From positions 3,844,001-3,908,000 of the forward strand of contig CM035311.1 in the NCBI GenBank assembly GCA_002900995.3: DNA of 64,000 nucleotides. Direction: 5' to 3'. The notes beneath the pieces were generated by a model. It did not search any database. It saw only the letters and a program-made list of their open reading frames with translations, and had not been told where the DNA came from. Positions within the stretch are counted from its first letter, which is position 1. Each line of letters begins with the position of its first letter. This document shows, one piece after another, positions 38,024 through 62,647 of this stretch. The stretch is from Ganoderma boninense. Its lineage: Eukaryota > Basidiomycota > Agaricomycetes > Polyporales > Polyporaceae. The position numbers were made by a program, and so were the translations under genes.

Positions 38024-39247
38024 ATGCCTTCGCGGGGTGAACGTCAGGCCTCCCACATGCCAGAGAATCGCACTGCTTGGGATGCGAATGAGGACGACTT
38101 CAACGAAGGCGACGAGCGCAACGTAGGACAAAGTAAGCGATTGTTCGTCCATGCGCCTGCGAACACTATTTGACGTTGGAGTTAGTTGGCCAAGGCGAAA
38201 ATGCAGAGCACGTCTATTGTACCAACTTGTGTGTGCTGAGCATCTAGTGTCACTCATATCATCTTGGTACTAACAGCATACAGCGTGTGGGTTGTTCCCA
38301 TCGGTATGACTCCAGCGGAGGCCCGCAAGCGAGGACTAGATCTTATGGAGCCCATTATCATCGAGTCCATCACTTGGAATAGAAACTTGCAGCAAGTACG
38401 TAGCCTGACTGTATATGCATGTCGCGCCTGATCTTTCGCCAGTTCGTATTCAAAGGGATTGAGTTTGTGCGGGCTAGCGAGATCAAGGGCACTTGGTCCT
38501 TCGCAACCGAAGACGCGGCCACTTCGACAGTCATCAATGGCCTTGGTGGGGCAGATGAATTAGTCAAGACAGGTCGCATAACCTTCTTTGCAGGATGTCG
38601 GATCGAAGACTTTGCACTTGTCGCGCACCTGGGACCTGCCAGTGTCACCTTTCCACCGCTACTGCCTAGACAGCCGTACACGCGATCCGACGTCTCCATT
38701 CAGTATCAGCCTGACAGTGAGCTGTGGGTTGCAGCAGAGGCAAGTCAAGCAAAATATGACCAACACTTTGAATACCACTGCTAATATGACACACAGCCAG
38801 CGTACTCTTTCTGTCACCCAGGCTGCTCCAAGGAACGCCAATACTCTCCGCATAGTGATGAGATGAGATGGTGCCCTGGTGATTGCCAGCGGTGGTACCA
38901 CGTCGAATGTTTGGACGGACCACATCTCAGCAGCGACATTTTCCAAGCTGATGCCAGGACGGCTCGCTTCGCGACCAACTGGAAGCAGTGGAACAAGATC
39001 CTTAACCTCCGCATCGCTCGAACTCCTCGCACTGATGATGGGTACGGAACTCCGGCAGTTCCGTTCTCGCTCGAGCGAGTTCTAGTGACCATGCGCGAGA
39101 AGGGCACTGCTTTTAGTTGAACGGTTAACCGCGGCTTGCCATCGTTCCGAGCTACACTGAAGGACGTTGTACAAACCGAAGACTGGCCGCAGGATATGCA
39201 TACGCGGCTCGTCCAAGAAGTTATCGTAGCCACGGAGGCCGCATCAA
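38024..39247 (+). pseudogene. PHD-finger-like gene, 5' part, split by retrotransposon
   Basis: Exons 38024-38132, 38277-38395, 38443-38739 and 38797-39120 join in phase to a 282-residue product that stops at a TGA (39118-39120). The third intron (38740-38796) starts with GC (gcaagt) and ends cacacag, a GC-AG intron. The product contains VWVVPIGMTPAEARKRG, a possible BAH-like region, then CHPGCSKERQ...MRWCPGDCQRWYHVECL, a PHD-like Cys/His series. Past the TGA the same frame stays open (TVNRGLPSFRATLKDVVQ) to the insertion site and continues at 45786-45840 with YKCVGSGCTQWL and a stop. That aligns with the end of the paralogue at 7192-8527 (WWACKNCRQF). The TGA is probably an earlier nonsense change, and the element then removed the last 17 codons. 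Confidence 0.7.
39243..39247. repeat. 5-bp target-site duplication, left
   Basis: atcaa here is repeated at 45786-45790 directly after the right LTR, as expected for integrase-made 5-bp staggered insertion. Confidence 0.95.
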
Positions 39248-39707
39248 TGTCATGAACGGCACGCTCAGCGCCTACCCCGGCGTCTCTCTTTCCCTTTTTG
39301 GACTGTTTGCCTCCCGCGTCGTCCTTATTGTCCTCCGTTGTTTAGCAAACCTGTCCCTTGTTCTCGCAGTACAATAACTCCTGTTACCCATTGTTCCCGT
39401 CGTCATTGTACTACATACCATTGTTCTTCCACTGGTTCCCGTGTCCATAGTTACCTATTGTCCCCGGTTCCCATTGTCCACTACATGTATATAAGGCCTG
39501 TACTTCGCTACCTGGAGACCTCAGTTTCGACCTCTTGTCTCCAGGTAAGCCTCGCTGTATTCTCGCTCGTTAGTTACTTGCTCAATACATCTTGTCTCCA
39601 GCCTGACTGTCGAGCCCTGCTCCGCTCTCGCTGCACAAGTGCTCGTCGACGCCCTTGCTCGTCTCGTAAGCCTCCTCCCTGATCTTACTCGACAGCCAGT
39701 CGTAACA
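39248..39707 (+). repeat. 5' LTR (460 bp)
   Basis: It starts tgtcatgaac and ends cgtaaca. It contains the TATA box, predicted start, a 9-bp inverted repeat and a strong splice donor (cag|gtaagc at 39545/39546). By eye it matches 45326-45785 without differences. Confidence 0.95.
39488..39496 (+). promoter_or_regulatory. LTR TATA box
   Basis: tatataagg lies 35 nt upstream of the 11-nt self-primer sequence at 39523-39533, the distance expected from TATA to transcript start. The copy in the 3' LTR is at 45566-45574. Confidence 0.75.
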
Positions 39708-39709
39708 TT

Positions 39710-39720
39710 AGGTCGAAACT
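39710..39720 (+). promoter_or_regulatory. Primer-binding site, self-priming type
   Basis: aggtcgaaact begins two bases after the 5' LTR and is the exact reverse complement of agtttcgacct at 39523-39533, the predicted 5' end of the RNA. The match is 11 nt and stops on both sides. Tf1 of fission yeast uses an 11-nt self-primer of this kind. I did not recognise a usual initiator-tRNA site here. Confidence 0.7.
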
Positions 39721-40074
39721 TCTACACGAGCACCGGCGTACTCCACCCACACTCTTTCCCTCTCGTACGGTACGCACTTAGATCCTCTGTGTTGGCCTAG
39801 CGTAGTGCGCGCTCTAGTCACACCATCGGACGTGGTCTCGGCGCAACCTGAGGCTTGCCACTCTTAGTGGTACAGTACGCGGAAAGCTCCTAACACGAGA
39901 CCCCGGTACTGACAGAAGTGGTCCGCCTCACGGCGTGGGAGGCTAGAGAAAGGCGGCGAAACAAAGCCAAGGCAGAACACCCTTGGGCCCGTGTCCCTTG
40001 GGCTAAGACACAGCAACAGGCCGAGGAGGCTGAGCAGACAGTGTTGGATCGTGCACCTGCCGTTTCATTCCTAG

Positions 40075-41526
40075 GATAAGGAAGCGAGATTCAACGTGGC
40101 TTGCCAAGCCTGGGGACACGTATTTCACCCCACTGCAGTACAGGACGAGTACTGGGACGAAGATAAGCAAACCTGGTACTACTGCGAGGAGCAACCGTGC
40201 CCCCACCGATCACACACATTCAACGATACTCTTGAAACGCGCGAAGGCATCGCCCCTAGACTCCTCACCACCAAAGAACAGGAAGTCCTAATCCGTGCGA
40301 AGATCGCAAACCCACCAGCACCTGCACCTCGAGATCCAAGCCGACCCCCAGCTCGCCAAGCCGCCCTCATCGCATCCAGGAATCCCTCATCCCGCCCTGC
40401 CTCACGCCCTACCTCACAACCCCAGAGTCGTGTCCAAAGTCGAATCCCCAGTCCTGCACGATCAACAGGGTCTCCCATCCTCGACAAGACTCTTGAACTC
40501 GTTACAGAGCGTCTTGGACAGCGACGAACCTCGACTCCCGCAACCCCCATTGCTTCAACTTCTAAACTCCCAAAGGCAGAGAAAAAGCCGGAAGAAAAGA
40601 AGGAACCCAAGCAAGAGACCATCAGCCTCAACACTCCACAACCCTCATCCTCTTCATCAGCTGCACCCAGTCGAGCGTCCACACCCGCCATGACTACCCC
40701 TGCCCCCGCTCCACTGTTCGACACCTCCAAACTCCTCTCCCAGATCGCCCCACGTGAATACGATGGAAAATCCGCACAGGATGGTCTCCGCTTTGTGTCC
40801 GCCGCTCAGATCTACTACAACACCCTTACGGCGGTAGCGGTTGGCACGCCTAGCGACGTCATATGGATGACCATCCTCAGTAAGCTCACGGAAGGAGCAG
40901 CAGCCTGGGCTGGCCCCCACATTGTAAAGCTCGCCGGTGGAACTAGTCCTTGGGCAGACTATGGCGAGTTCAGCACAGCCTTCAAGGATCACTTCTGCGC
41001 GGCTGACGACAAGGAGGCTGCCATCGCTGAACTTGTCAAGCTTTGCAAGGCGTATCGCAAGGTTGGCACTGTCCAGGAGTACACGGCGCAGTTCAATGCA
41101 GCTGCAGCGCGGACCGGCTTCGGCGACGAGGACAAACGCGAACGCTACCGCTCTGGTCTGCCTCCCAGGCTCCGGGACGTCCTCGCCACCAGTGCCCACG
41201 ACATCTCGGACCTCACCAAAATCCAGAAGGTGGCGCTGTCGCTCGACCAGGCCCTCGTCACCAGAGAGGAAGAACGGCCAAAGTCGTTTGGATGGAAGAA
41301 GAAGGGGGAGAAGGCGGCCGCTACCGGGAAGAAGCCGTTCCCTGGAAACTGTCATATCTGTGGCCAGCCCGGACATCGTAAGTATGACTGCCCGCGGCTG
41401 AAGAGTCAGCAAGCCGCTTCCTCGTCCACTGCAACTACGGAAGTAGCGGCTCTTCAGGCCCAGGTCAAGGCGATGGAGGAGAAGATCGCGGCCCTTACGA
41501 CCGCTGAGAAGAAGGAGGGTTTCTGA
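40075..41526 (+). CDS. gag: Gag, open frame without upstream ATG
   Basis: The frame opens after a stop at 40072 and ends with TGA at 41524-41526. The first ATG in it is 40690, giving a 278-residue Gag that begins MTTPAPAPLFDTSKLLSQI just before the typical retrotransposon Gag helical domain (DGLRFVSAAQIYYNTL...AAAWAGPHI). Upstream of that ATG, 205 codons are open and protein-like (WGHVFHPTAVQDEYWDEDKQ; later Ser/Pro/Arg-rich), so translation may start at a near-cognate codon such as GTG at 40096. A CCHC knuckle CHICGQPGHRKYDC lies at 41350-41391, with a short coiled C-terminus after it. A further ATG-free frame (39894-40079) sits one frame away just upstream. Confidence 0.85.
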   Translation, partial: DKEARFNVACQAWGHVFHPTAVQDEYWDEDKQTWYYCEEQPCPHRSHTFNDTLETREGIAPRLLTTKEQEVLIRAKIANPPAPAPRDPSRPPARQAALIASRNPSSRPASRPTSQPQSRVQSRIPSPARSTGSPILDKTLELVTERLGQRRTSTPATPIASTSKLPKAEKKPEEKKEPKQETISLNTPQPSSSSSAAPSRASTPAMTTPAPAPLFDTSKLLSQIAPREYDGKSAQDGLRFVSAAQIYYNTLTAVAVGTPSDVIWMTILSKLTEGAAAWAGPHIVKLAGGTSPWADYGEFSTAFKDHFCAADDKEAAIAELVKLCKAYRKVGTVQEYTAQFNAAAARTGFGDEDKRERYRSGLPPRLRDVLATSAHDISDLTKIQKVALSLDQALVTREEERPKSFGWKKKGEKAAATGKKPFPGNCHICGQPGHRKYDCPRLKSQQAASSSTATTEVAALQAQVKAMEEKIAALTTAEKKEGF

Positions 41527-44500
41527 TTAGAGCCGCACTGGACGCTGCGCGTGCCGGCTCTTGTAGTAATAGTCGATTTTCTGTACTGAGCTCTGCGTTT
41601 GTATATGAAGTAAATCATAGTGGCCAACACTTTCATATACCAGTACGGTTAATCGGCAAGCAGCGACACAAGGACATAGTAGCCATGGTAGATAGCGGGG
41701 CTACTACTAAATTTTTACATAGACGGTTCGTAGAGAAGAACCAGGTTACGACGAGGAAGTTGGCAAGGCCAATTCCCCTGTACAACATAGATGGTACCGA
41801 GAACCGTGATGGAACGATCACGGAGGTCGCTGTGTTGGATATGGCGATTGGAGACCACCGAGAGAAGGTGGTGTTTGTGGTGACAGACATAGGAGAAGAG
41901 GATGTGATCATTGGCCTAGACTGGCTGCGCGAACACAACCCTGAAGTAGATTGGGAACGTGGCTCGCTGCGCCTATCGAGATGTCCGGAGGCATGTCCGG
42001 CTCATCGGAAGGCATCCAAACCTGTTGAAACCAAAGCGCGTGATACGGAGGTACGGCTTACGGCGCGCAATGGTTCTCGACGGGTGCGGAAGGCAAAGAC
42101 GATGGGTAGGATATGCACGGCCGTAATGGTCGAGGAGGAGGAGGAAGATAGGCCTCCACCACCAGGTTTTCTGCCGGAATGGGATGGCACTGAGGAGTCT
42201 CTTCTCAATGCACTAGAAGATGGACAACGACTTCGAGGTACCCCTAAGATCTTTGTGTCAGCGAGCTACACGTACTCTCAACAGCTCGCTGAACAAGAGT
42301 ACCAGAAGAAGGAAGTCCGTCCTGTCGAAGAGATCGTACCTCCCCAGTACCACGAGTATCTGCGTGTGTTCTCGAAAGAGGCGTCCGAACGTCTACCCGA
42401 GCACGGACCCTATGACCACGCTATAGAACTCGTACCAGATGCTAGGATGTTCCATTCCAAGGTGTACCCCCTGTCTCCCAGCGAGCAGGTCGAGCTTGAC
42501 AAGTTTCTTAGTGAGAACTTGGCCAAAGGATATATTCAAGAGTCGAAGTCACCGATGTCGTCACCATTCTTCTTCATTAAAAAGAAGGATGGCAGCCTAC
42601 GTCCTGTACAGGACTACCGGCGATTGAACGACATCACCATTAAGAACCGATACCCACTACCGTTGGTGTCGGACTTGATGGATCGACTCAAGAGGGCCAA
42701 GTACTTTACAAAGCTTGACATCCGTTGGGGGTACAACAATGTGCGGATTAAGACCGGTGATGAATGGAAGGCTGCCTTCGTTACCAATCGTGGACTGTTC
42801 GAACCGAACGTGATGTACTTCGGACTGGCTAACTCGCCTAGTACATTCTCTGCGCTCATGAACGACATCTTCAAGGACCTCATCATACTCGGCAAAATCA
42901 CTATCTACCTCGACGACATCCTCATATTCACCAACGACATCGAGGAACACCGCACACTGGTGCGTGAGGTCCTGAAGCGTCTGGCGGAGCACGACCTGTT
43001 CTGCAAGCCAGAGAAGTGCGAATTCGAACAGCCTAAGGTTGAGTACCTAGGTGTGCTCGTCTCGGAGAACTGTGTGGAGATGGACCCAGTGAAGGTCAGG
43101 GGTATCGCAGAATGGCCTGTCCCTCAGAACGCCTCAGATGTACGGAAGTTCCGCGGTTTCGCGAATTTCTACAGGCGGTTCATTAAGGACTTCAGCGCAG
43201 TATGCAAACCCCTCGACCGTCTCACGGGTAGCGCTCCCTGGCAATGGGGTGCCGAAGAGCAATCAGCATTCGACGAGCTCAAACGTCGTTTCACTGAAAG
43301 CCCTGTCCTGAGCATGTATGACCCAGACCGCAAAACCCGCATTGAAGTCGATGCATCCGGGTATGCTACTGGTGCGGTTCTGTCTCAGGAGGGGGAGGAC
43401 GGCAAATGGCACCCTGTGGCTTTCCACTCTGAGTCAATGAGCGATGCGGAACGCAACTACGAGATCTATGACAAGGAGATGCTCGCTATCATCCGTGCCC
43501 TGCAGGCCTGGCGCCACTACCTCGAGGGTCTTCCCAGTGTGTTCGAGATCCAGTCGGACCACAAGAACCTCGAGTACTGGAAAGCCGCGCAAAACCTCAC
43601 ACGCAGGCAGGCACGATGGGCTCTCTATCTGTCACGGTTCGACTTTGTCATTGCACACAAGCCAGGCACCTCCAATGGTAGGGCAGACGCGCTGTCGCGC
43701 AGGCCTGATCACCAGAAGGACGATGCCGATGACAACCTGAACCGAGTCATGTTGCAACCCGATCGCTTCCGAGTACTGGCAGCCAAGAGAGGGCACATGT
43801 CAGTGGTACCAGAAAAGGCACTGCTCCGCCGCATTCGAGAATGCGGAGAGCGTGAGCAGGAGGTCGCAGAGGCACTCAGCAAGCTCGATAAGCTAGGGCC
43901 AGCACGTCTACAGAACGATTTGGTGGACTGGAACACAGAACAAGGCCTGCTGCTCTACCGCGGCCGAGTTTATGTCCCCAAAGACGACGCGCTCCGAGCA
44001 GAGATAGTGCGCATTCACCACGACCTCCCGCCTGCTGGACACCCTGGCCAGGCAAAGACGGTGGAGTTGGTTACACGGAACTACTGGTGGCCGGGCATGG
44101 CAAAGTTCATTAAAGATTACGTTGAGACCTGCGACACTTGTCGCCGTGGCAAGACTTCACATGCGAAGCCACACGGTCCTCTTCAACCCAACGAGATCCC
44201 AGACGGCCCAGGCCAAGTAGTTACCTGTGACTTCATCACTGGACTGCCAGAGGTGGACGGATACAACGCGCTCCAGCTTATTGCTGATCGGCATGGAAAG
44301 ATGATTCACCTTATTCCATGCACCGAGGAGATCGACACGGAAGGGACTGCAGACAACTTCATTAGAGAATGGTTCCGTCTACATGGACTCCCGCGAAAGA
44401 TCATCTCTGATCGGGGGCCCCAGTTCTCTAGCAAGCTCTTCCGTGCAATCCTTAAAGGCCTCGACATAGAAAGCGCATTGTCCACAGCCTACCACCCGCA

Positions 44501-45299
44501 GACGGATGGACAGTCGGAGCGATGGAACCAGGAGATAGAGGCGTACCTACGGATGTACTGCTCAAGGCGCCGCGACGATTGGGTCAAGTGGCTACCAACA
44601 GCAGAGTACTGCTTTAACTCGCGCGTACATTCATCCACAGGGTACTCGCCGTTTTACCTCATGTACGGCTATGAACCTCAGTTCCACGTTCCGATGCTAT
44701 CCACCACGGTGCCTACGGCGGATGAACGAAGAGAGGAGTTGCGGCAGGCAAGGGAGGACGCGACCTCAGCCTTAACCCTGGCAGCAGAATGGATGAAGGA
44801 GTACTACGATCGCTATGTCTCCGCTGCTCCAGAGTTCAAGGAGGGTCAGAAGGTGTGGCTCGACACGAGGAATTTCCGTGTCCCAGGAGTCTCTCGGAAG
44901 CTGGTGGACCGGTACGCTGGCCCGTACCCTGTCAAGCGCAAGGTGGGCAACTTGGCTTATGAGCTCAAGCTCCCCAAAGACATGGGGCTCCACCCGGTGT
45001 TCCATGTGACACTCTTACACCCGCACAAAGAAAGCCAACTTCCTGGTCGGCATCCCCCTGAACCCGCAGCTCTTGAAGTGGAAGGAGAGGAAGAGTACGA
45101 AGTAGAGGAAGTGTTAGAGTCGCGTCGGTATGGGCGGTGGAAGAAACTGCAGTATCTTGTTCACTGGAAGGGCTGGGGCCCTGAACACGATAGCTGGGAA
45201 GACGTGTCGGATCTAGCAAATGCGCCAAAAGTGCTGCAAAAGTTTCATTCGACACATCCCGACGCTCCTGGCCCTCTCAACAAGAAGACTCGATCGTGA
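41508..45299 (+). CDS. pol: Pol: protease, RT, RNase H, integrase, chromodomain
   Basis: The frame is open from 41508; the first ATG (41685) falls inside the protease, at MVDSGATTKFLH, while the protease-like lead-in FHIPVRLIGKQRHKD lies upstream. That supports entry by frameshift. RT has YRRLNDITIKNRYPLP, FTKLDIRWGYNNVR and the catalytic YLDD at 42906-42917. RNase H has TRIEVDASGYATGAVL, EMLAII and QSDHKNLEYW. Integrase has an HHCC zinc site (H...H, CDTCRRGK) and D,D,E residues in CDFITGLP, ISDRGPQFSS and QSERWNQE, then a GPY/F-type region (RYAGPYPVKRKVGNLAYEL). The C-terminal chromodomain (EYEVEEVLESRRYG...YLVHWKGWGPEHDSWE, about 45095-45215) should steer integration to modified histones. 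No stop or frameshift. Confidence 0.95.
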   Translation, partial: EEGGFLIRAALDAARAGSCSNSRFSVLSSAFVYEVNHSGQHFHIPVRLIGKQRHKDIVAMVDSGATTKFLHRRFVEKNQVTTRKLARPIPLYNIDGTENRDGTITEVAVLDMAIGDHREKVVFVVTDIGEEDVIIGLDWLREHNPEVDWERGSLRLSRCPEACPAHRKASKPVETKARDTEVRLTARNGSRRVRKAKTMGRICTAVMVEEEEEDRPPPPGFLPEWDGTEESLLNALEDGQRLRGTPKIFVSASYTYSQQLAEQEYQKKEVRPVEEIVPPQYHEYLRVFSKEASERLPEHGPYDHAIELVPDARMFHSKVYPLSPSEQVELDKFLSENLAKGYIQESKSPMSSPFFFIKKKDGSLRPVQDYRRLNDITIKNRYPLPLVSDLMDRLKRAKYFTKLDIRWGYNNVRIKTGDEWKAAFVTNRGLFEPNVMYFGLANSPSTFSALMNDIFKDLIILGKITIYLDDILIFTNDIEEHRTLVREVLKRLAEHDLFCKPEKCEFEQPKVEYLGVLVSENCVEMDPVKVRGIAEWPVPQNASDVRKFRGFANFYRRFIKDFSAVCKPLDRLTGSAPWQWGAEEQSAFDELKRRFTESPVLSMYDPDRKTRIEVDASGYATGAVLSQEGEDGKWHPVAFHSESMSDAERNYEIYDKEMLAIIRALQAWRHYLEGLPSVFEIQSDHKNLEYWKAAQNLTRRQARWALYLSRFDFVIAHKPGTSNGRADALSRRPDHQKDDADDNLNRVMLQPDRFRVLAAKRGHMSVVPEKALLRRIRECGEREQEVAEALSKLDKLGPARLQNDLVDWNTEQGLLLYRGRVYVPKDDALRAEIVRIHHDLPPAGHPGQAKTVELVTRNYWWPGMAKFIKDYVETCDTCRRGKTSHAKPHGPLQPNEIPDGPGQVVTCDFITGLPEVDGYNALQLIADRHGKMIHLIPCTEEIDTEGTADNFIREWFRLHGLPRKIISDRGPQFSSKLFRAILKGLDIESALSTAYHPQTDGQSERWNQEIEAYLRMYCSRRRDDWVKWLPTAEYCFNSRVHSSTGYSPFYLMYGYEPQFHVPMLSTTVPTADERREELRQAREDATSALTLAAEWMKEYYDRYVSAAPEFKEGQKVWLDTRNFRVPGVSRKLVDRYAGPYPVKRKVGNLAYELKLPKDMGLHPVFHVTLLHPHKESQLPGRHPPEPAALEVEGEEEYEVEEVLESRRYGRWKKLQYLVHWKGWGPEHDSWEDVSDLANAPKVLQKFHSTHPDAPGPLNKKTRS
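41517..41523 (+). promoter_or_regulatory. Predicted -1 frameshift slippery heptamer
   Basis: GGGTTTC is read G GGT TTC in the gag frame, the X XXY YYZ form, and is followed at once by the gag TGA. The -1 frame is open from 41508 and leads straight into protease and pol. A downstream stem was not worked out. Confidence 0.65.
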
Positions 45300-45312
45300 G
45301 GACACGATCCTT

Positions 45313-45322
45313 AGGAGGGGGG
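45313..45322 (+). promoter_or_regulatory. Polypurine tract
   Basis: aggagggggg ends three bases before the 3' LTR and would prime plus-strand DNA synthesis. Confidence 0.75.
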
Positions 45323-45325
45323 TAT

Positions 45326-45785
45326 TGTCATGAACGGCACGCTCAGCGCCTACCCCGGCGTCTCTCTTTCCCTTTTTGGACTGTTTGCCTCCCGCGTCGT
45401 CCTTATTGTCCTCCGTTGTTTAGCAAACCTGTCCCTTGTTCTCGCAGTACAATAACTCCTGTTACCCATTGTTCCCGTCGTCATTGTACTACATACCATT
45501 GTTCTTCCACTGGTTCCCGTGTCCATAGTTACCTATTGTCCCCGGTTCCCATTGTCCACTACATGTATATAAGGCCTGTACTTCGCTACCTGGAGACCTC
45601 AGTTTCGACCTCTTGTCTCCAGGTAAGCCTCGCTGTATTCTCGCTCGTTAGTTACTTGCTCAATACATCTTGTCTCCAGCCTGACTGTCGAGCCCTGCTC
45701 CGCTCTCGCTGCACAAGTGCTCGTCGACGCCCTTGCTCGTCTCGTAAGCCTCCTCCCTGATCTTACTCGACAGCCAGTCGTAACA
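45326..45785 (+). repeat. 3' LTR (460 bp)
   Basis: Appears identical by eye to the 5' LTR, and is followed by the atcaa duplication at 45786-45790. Confidence 0.95.
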
Positions 45786-45840
45786 ATCAACACAGCGGGT
45801 CTACAAATGCGTCGGGTCAGGCTGCACGCAATGGCTTTAG
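45786..45840 (+). pseudogene. PHD-like gene, 3' remnant after the retrotransposon
   Basis: After the second atcaa the host frame resumes and encodes TQRVYKCVGSGCTQWL, then TAG at 45838-45840. The CxxxxxC pair corresponds to the last zinc pair (CKNC) of the paralogue at 7192-8527. Confidence 0.65.
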
Positions 45841-61485: not shown

Positions 61486-62647
61486 TTCCATGGCCGTGTA
61501 GCGGGACGAAAGCCAGTTTTTGCCGCCCGCACTTATGTCGAATGCAATGGAACCGCGCAGACAGCGATCTCCTAACCTCAGTGAGTCCTGTCGGACTCGC
61601 GACTTCGGACGGAATGATGTAAATTGGGGGCGACGGAAGCAGGGCGACGTTCGCGGTTCGAGAAATAAAATGATTTACGTACTGTCATGCACGCGAGCCT
61701 GCAGCCTGTCTCCTCATGGCCAGCCACTCCGAGCGCCATGGCGGTCTTTTCACCCCGTACGAGACCTCCTTCGTCGATTTGTGTGCTCTCGGCATCCCGT
61801 AATGTGCTCAGGACACGGGACGTCCATCTCGATCCTCCCCTCTCTCACAGCACCGGAGCAGGCGGGTGCCCGCTGGCTGCCTCGTACGACATTGCGGACG
61901 TTCCTCCGTATGTCATTCTCTAGTGTTCTAAGTTGCAGGTGCTCGTCGGCGTCGGACCGTTGTGGTGGCGCGGTGTTGCGTCCGAGGTTGCTGTTGACGC
62001 TCGCCTGCGTCCGTCTTGTTCAGAACTTAGCGCCGACGGCGCTGAACGGTCCGGGTAATACACCTTGCAGACGGCCGTGCCACGGCCAAGCGGCTCCGGT
62101 TGTCTGGTGGTACGGCGCCCAACGACGAACCGCGTTCGCGCCAAGTCTTACAGTCCCTGCCGTTGATCGCGAACGTGCCCCTGCCCAGTGCCGGGTGGAG
62201 GTGCTCGCCCAGTCGGACTGTTTGTGGAGGGGCGGAAGTCAGCCTAACGGTGCGCGTCTCCCGAGAGAAAGCGCATTGACCTTCCGTTCCGACGCATCGA
62301 AAGCCGAACGGGCCCGTCGTGGAGCCTCACCTGAGGTGCGAATTGGAACGCGAGCGGAAGGACCCGGCTTGAGTGATAGGGCGACTTACCTGGGTGGCCT
62401 CTCGCGACCTCAGTCTGTGCCTGCCGCTCGCCGAGACCCGACGGTCCCAGATATTCACCAAGTCGCGTACGGCGGGTGTCTGGCGGCCTGGTTTTGATGT
62501 TTCGGGCGTGTGGTTGTGACGTCTCGAACACGGTGTTGAGGCTGCTGGGCTGGCGGTAAATAGAAGAGGGACACTAGTGCTTGCTTACCGGATGAAGAAG
62601 ACTCCGCTCGCCCCAGGATGTGAAAGTGAGCGCTGCTGCAATGGACG
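61486..62647 (-). repeat. Near-exact repeat of 60223-61385, likely unmerged contig end
   Basis: Begins ttccatggccgtgtagcg, as at 60223, and passes gtgaaagtgagcgctgctgc at about 62620, which is where the left copy meets the gap. Differences are mostly one- to few-base indels, as in unpolished or low-coverage sequence. Confidence 0.9.

Follow-up and report, generated by a model that had tools for sequence, protein, structure and literature searches.

In Tf1-type self-priming retrotransposons, the 5' end of the RNA is complementary to the primer-binding site, and we know of no Tf1-type chromovirus with a Gag extension of the kind described below. In murine leukaemia virus (MLV), glyco-Gag is an N-terminally extended Gag started at a CUG codon, and near-cognate codons can support appreciable initiation, e.g. 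2-30%, according to one account (PMC3542737). In rice tungro bacilliform virus (RTBV), open reading frame (ORF) I starts at AUU and ribosomes scan 900 nt without an internal AUG, as given in another (PMC5902531). Here we describe a long terminal repeat (LTR) retrotransposon of the Ty3/gypsy class in the fungus Ganoderma boninense, located at 39248-45785 of a 64,000-nt stretch of contig CM035311.1 (the window, in whose positions all coordinates are given), and we estimate a probability of about 0.72 that two Gag isoforms are produced from its RNA through leaky scanning.

In the proposed mechanism, ribosomes would move along an AUG-free leader of 573 nt until they meet a near-cognate codon in strong context (GUG at 40096, or CUG in subfamily C), where a minority would initiate to give a long Gag of 476 aa, comprising an extension and the capsid-nucleocapsid part. 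The remaining ribosomes would scan 594 further AUG-free, coding nucleotides to AUG 40690 and produce a short Gag of 278 aa. We infer that both proteins are made, the long form as the minor and the short form as the major product. The features involved are the following.

39488-39495, plus strand: TATA-like box read from the sequence, about 30 nt 5' of the putative transcript start
39523-39533, plus strand: AGTTTCGACCT, putative self-primer and 5' terminus of the RNA, matching the reverse complement of 39710-39720 exactly
39710-39720, plus strand: primer-binding site AGGTCGAAACT, 2 nt past the LTR
39523-40095, plus strand: AUG-free untranslated leader, 573 nt
40096-40098, plus strand: GTG, proposed long-Gag start (AAC GTG G); CTG in subfamily C
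40096-40689, plus strand: AUG-free N-terminal Gag extension, 198 codons
40690-41526, plus strand: short Gag of 278 aa, begun at the first AUG in the putative RNA, with a Retrotrans_gag capsid domain and a CCHC zinc knuckle

Absence of AUG upstream of the proposed short Gag

A preliminary description of this DNA had reported no ATG in any frame from 39523 to 40689, and recounting gave the same result (count 0), ATG being the only one of the 64 trinucleotides missing from the stretch. The neighbouring ATGs lie at 39485, 5' of the putative transcript start, and at 40690, and the 1205-nt gap between them is the longest ATG-to-ATG gap on the plus strand of the window. The runner-up ATG-free stretch on that strand is at 61910-62497 (587 nt). 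The chance expectation of about 18 ATGs given earlier applies to unbiased sequence; a fair expectation is 6.7-12.0, with 12.0 calculated from base composition and 6.7 from dinucleotides (P ~0.001 by Markov simulation). Most of the deficit is found in the coding part.

At least 38 near-full leader-gag copies are present in the same 55.6-Mb genome, in addition to divergent subfamilies. The comparison covered 65 copies, consisting of 40 of family A (the window and L002-L040, with the Gag frame open to its stop in 21/40) and 25 of subfamilies B, C and D, of which the D type was sampled by 5 copies. No out-of-frame ATG was observed in 595 non-redundant codons of the extension, against 5.99 expected; in a combined out-of-frame test on the window, L071, L076 and L091, none of 4000 shuffles reached zero, and P was 0.0018 with pol codon usage. 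Elsewhere, out-of-frame ATGs number 7 in the gag core and 48 in pol. In-frame methionine is likewise absent from the extension in 34/34 sequences, save two ATG start codons. AUG 40690, from which a protein carrying the capsid and zinc-knuckle domains is read, is kept in 64 of the 65 copies, with a purine at -3 also in 64/65.

Leaky scanning to the short Gag is supported because the coding stretch upstream is AUG-free and AUG 40690 is retained. AUGs past the near-cognate codon would be harmless if that codon caught all ribosomes; yet the extension is AUG-free, which makes leaky scanning the simplest reading. We also considered whether the near-cognate start gives the long Gag as the only product, with AUG 40690 as an internal methionine codon. 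Coding constraint does begin at 40096, and copy L035 has ATA at 40690 with its frame still open, but L035 is one of 65 copies, the avoidance of AUG past 40096 in all frames is left unexplained, and AUG 40690 with its purine at -3 persists beside residues that have diverged. An exclusively long product is thus unlikely. The selection against upstream AUGs suggested earlier is supported, while the choice then offered between very long scanning and initiation at a non-AUG codon gives way to both together, which the evidence favours.

The N-terminal extension and its proposed start codon

As stated in the preliminary description, the last 205 codons of the stretch (40075-40689) are open in the gag frame and of protein-coding appearance. 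A TAG precedes them at 40072, and their coding nature is supported by codon-position bias and by ratios of nonsynonymous to synonymous substitution (dN/dS) of 0.20-0.49 between subfamilies, at dS up to ~2. Variants found in at least two copies (shared variants) were taken as mostly inherited through active elements. Across 40075-40689, these fall on codon positions one, two and three in the numbers 13/0/22, with none of 35 at position 2, against 18/13/31 for private variants, which include 4 stops. Of the indels in the extension, those of 12 nt, in 5 copies, and of 6 nt, in 4, are the commonest; the others are private and mostly of 1 nt, save two 1-nt deletions. Within subfamilies, dN/dS is 0.09-0.16 for three pairs. 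Because shared variants avoid codon position 2, the commonest indels measure 12 and 6 nt and dN/dS is low, the stretch 40096-40689 appears to be a genuine coding extension of Gag at its N-terminus.

The extension is laid out as a domain of ~80 residues followed by a Ser/Pro/Arg- and Lys/Glu-rich linker. C3, H8, H11, W27, C30 and C35 are among the residues that do not vary across 8 aligned copies, and the same Cys/His/Trp residues occur in database protein P0020, whose sequence starts with M at the position of the proposed start. A protein search of the genome recovered divergent forms of the extension down to ~50% identity among at most 150 scored candidates. No sequence relatives of the extension were found above cut-off in Pfam or the PDB, and none in viral contigs; no full-length long Gag was found in the protein collection at E 0.01 among 3251 candidates. 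A sub-threshold match to coronavirus nucleocapsid (E 0.011, 3/8 members) was rejected, as it looks like a Ser/Arg-rich low-complexity match. Structure prediction for the extension was of low confidence (pLDDT mostly <50), with a hairpin at residues 18-29 and a helix at 59-71; the structure comparison spanned residues 211-392 in most rows, and no fold is claimed for the extension.

These data bear on the alternative that only the short Gag is made after scanning of 1,167 nt, 40075-40689 being untranslated leader that is open by chance. The 19 catalogue proteins found have the size of the short form (267-293 aa, 50-59% query coverage), and an extension-only search of longer proteins gave none, in agreement with this alternative; the codon-position pattern, the dN/dS values across subfamilies and the conserved Cys/His/Trp residues argue against it, and we regard it as the least probable of the readings considered.

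The proposed start codon is GTG in 53 copies, CTG in 10 and ATG in 2, and all 65 carry A at -3 together with G at +4. The codon of C is CTG; A, B and D have GTG. In 6/7 sequences, the start site is the only CTG, GTG or TTG in A-3/G+4 context from the RNA start, and L078 has one further such codon at -150, above the stop. In A, B and C the start site is preceded by an in-frame stop at a distance of 24 nt, and in D at 78-93 nt. Relative to A, the spacing between the start site and a conserved motif 5' of it is altered by 6 nt in C and 13 nt in D, and because of the 13-nt difference the frame above the start is not kept in D. Production of a longer Gag is supported by the codon-level constraint together with the conserved GTG/CTG in A-3/G+4 context.

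The R/U5 part of the leader contains an intron-like sequence at 39545-39601 (CAG/GTAAGC ... CTCCAG), the splicing of which would shorten the leader and add no AUG. An AUG for the long form could alternatively be provided by splicing or by a different transcript start, for which this intron-like sequence and one open, in-frame YAG/TG acceptor in the D-type copy L093 might be invoked. The putative RNA is ATG-free 5' of 40690, so only an A/TG junction could create such a codon. Scanning of the window and seven copies with simple A/GTRNG and YAG/TG patterns revealed no open in-frame A/TG junction in the window, whose lone in-frame YAG/TG acceptor runs into a stop, and the added upstream ATG that had been envisaged earlier was thus not found there. 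The conserved NTG would also be left unexplained, and we consider this route very improbable. Cap-independent entry, through an internal ribosome entry site or a shunt, could instead bring ribosomes near 40096, and in seven copies the leader bins compared have 86-100% identity to the window. The leader has no AUG-started upstream ORF (uORF) such as drives shunting in pararetroviruses, and RNA structure around the start had no unusual stability in four sequences (z -0.81 to +1.20); we consider such entry very improbable as well.

Related copies and element architecture

For subfamilies B, C and D, the majority state of the stretch contains no ATG (0 sites). The ATGs observed in individual copies of these subfamilies are at CpG-type sites (ACG to ATG, CGTG to CATG) for 21 of 27 subfamily-sites, which suggests CpG methylation decay after insertion, and copies of the same subfamily with a common ATG site are not each other's nearest relatives. 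In family A, each ATG position is found in at most 2/40 copies. ATG-making variants there make up 10/113 of the private and 1/65 of the shared variants, the shared one being at the start codon, compared with 5/101 private and 4/151 shared in the gag core (P 0.49). L096 and L097, tried as distant families, are instead decayed relatives of the family and were excluded from the counts; L096 has no ATG from its start motif to the gag AUG.

Several observations weigh against the production of two isoforms by leaky scanning. The leader alone (39523-40095), with 2.5 ATGs expected, is not significantly depleted (P 0.08); shuffle tests of the extension on one sequence each are weak (P 0.02-0.16); and the copies in the combined test are ATG-free ones chosen as intact representatives, while other copies do have ATGs. 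The preliminary description had named ATGs in related copies as evidence to the contrary, and on the face of it these exist, with at least one ATG in the stretch in 11/39 family A and 16/25 divergent copies (27/64 others); the sites themselves look like decay after insertion. The contrast between private and shared ATG-making variants in family A has P 0.015 without the start-codon variant and 0.058 with it, the 10 private gains exceed a simple expectation of 4.0, and the contrast is probably in part mutational, through CpG hotspots. Subfamilies have segments in common, so that copies are not independent. With regard to coding, two 1-nt deletions in the extension, in a G run and a C run, are carried by 2 copies each, one within-family pair has dN/dS of 0.88 on 7 differences, the private-versus-shared contrasts in nonsynonymous to synonymous variants and in stops are non-significant alone (P 0.29 each), and the extension is resembled by 2 database proteins among the matches listed. 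In L017 and L037, whose frames are open, the start site reads ATG; these two copies are not nearest neighbours and the change sits at a CpG, and they look like separate post-insertion hits.

Identity of the N-domain DNA to the window is 39-60% in C and D copies, and B (L071) diverges in the linker instead (55-70%). Protein identity of the gag core is 91-97% at the C and D places listed and 80-81% in B. Because leaders and gag cores are alike but N-domains differ in C and D, the extension appears to have been exchanged among elements by recombination, every form having an NTG start. More tentatively, the extension might be a swappable cassette, with recombination replacing the head domain of a minor Gag isoform; we consider this possible but somewhat doubtful. 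If true, head exchange could evade host control or alter particle targeting, with the near-cognate codon setting the dosage. In family A, shared variants per 100 nt range from 2 to 9 in the LTR, leader and extension and from 7 to 28 in the gag core (40648-41526), where they are mostly at third positions; either mosaic ancestry or extra nucleotide constraint upstream may be behind this rise.

The remaining features of the element are the following.

39243-39247 and 45786-45790, plus strand: 5' and 3' copies of the target-site duplication ATCAA
39248-39707, plus strand: 5' LTR (TGTCATG...TAACA)
45326-45785, plus strand: 3' LTR
41517-41523, plus strand: GGGTTTC, canonical-type -1 slip heptamer, adjoining the gag stop UGA at 41524-41526
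41508-45299, plus strand: pol in the -1 frame, encoding protease, reverse transcriptase, RNase H, integrase and chromodomain

The element is a Ty3/gypsy chromovirus, putatively of the self-priming type. Its two LTRs show zero mismatches (20-nt bins, 39260 to 39699), its Gag has the capsid fold and zinc knuckle of Ty3/gypsy Gag proteins, and Pfam domains in pol follow the order protease, reverse transcriptase, RNase H, integrase and C-terminal chromodomain (Chromo E 2.7e-12). The putative RNA start and the primer-binding site form an 11-nt exact complement, which together with the TATA-like box places the RNA start near 39523 by prediction. Among the 25 divergent copies, a 10-nt core of the primer-binding site is present in 22 and a 10-nt core of the start in 21. 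The slip heptamer is kept in 37/38 family A copies covering the site and in 19/20 B/C stretches; a 7-bp stem ~5 nt 3' of the slip site is not more stable than shuffled sequences (z -0.57).

Comparison with known systems

Named relatives of the Gag are Ganoderma proteins with 55-65% identity. In public records, relatives from Ganoderma sinense (P0004, P0007, P0011, P0012, P0014 and P0015) bear the label 'transcription factor'. The 19 catalogue relatives found span the short Gag only, and gene prediction thus appears to miss the N-terminal domain.

As in the self-priming Tf1-type chromoviruses, the putative RNA of the element begins with a complement of its primer-binding site; it differs from them in that gag and pol occupy different frames and a -1 slip site is present. 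It resembles MLV glyco-Gag in that Gag is extended in frame at its N-terminus, the near-cognate codon lying upstream and the AUG-started Gag downstream. The glyco-Gag extension has a signal peptide for the endoplasmic reticulum, whereas the domain of the fungal element is Cys/His-bearing, no long hydrophobic run was seen on inspection of the 8-copy extension alignment, and AUG is missing here from the leader and from the 594-nt extension.

With RTBV and the badnaviruses, the element has in common a near-cognate start and a long upstream coding stretch that lacks AUG in any frame before a downstream AUG. In those viruses the ORFs are separate and the leader, which has a uORF, is shunted, in contrast to one frame and two predicted isoforms in the fungal element, whose leader is without AUG and hence has no AUG uORF to drive a shunt. 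A combination of this kind in Ty3/gypsy was not found described in the titles and abstract openings of the open-licence literature searched. A conserved coding stretch without AUG in all frames could serve as a search signature for other dual-start Gags. The arrangement fits a combination of both devices, that of MLV and that of RTBV, in a fungal Ty3/gypsy lineage, and would bring to fungal Ty3/gypsy elements a mode of Gag expression, with two isoforms and a non-AUG start, that is known from a gammaretrovirus.
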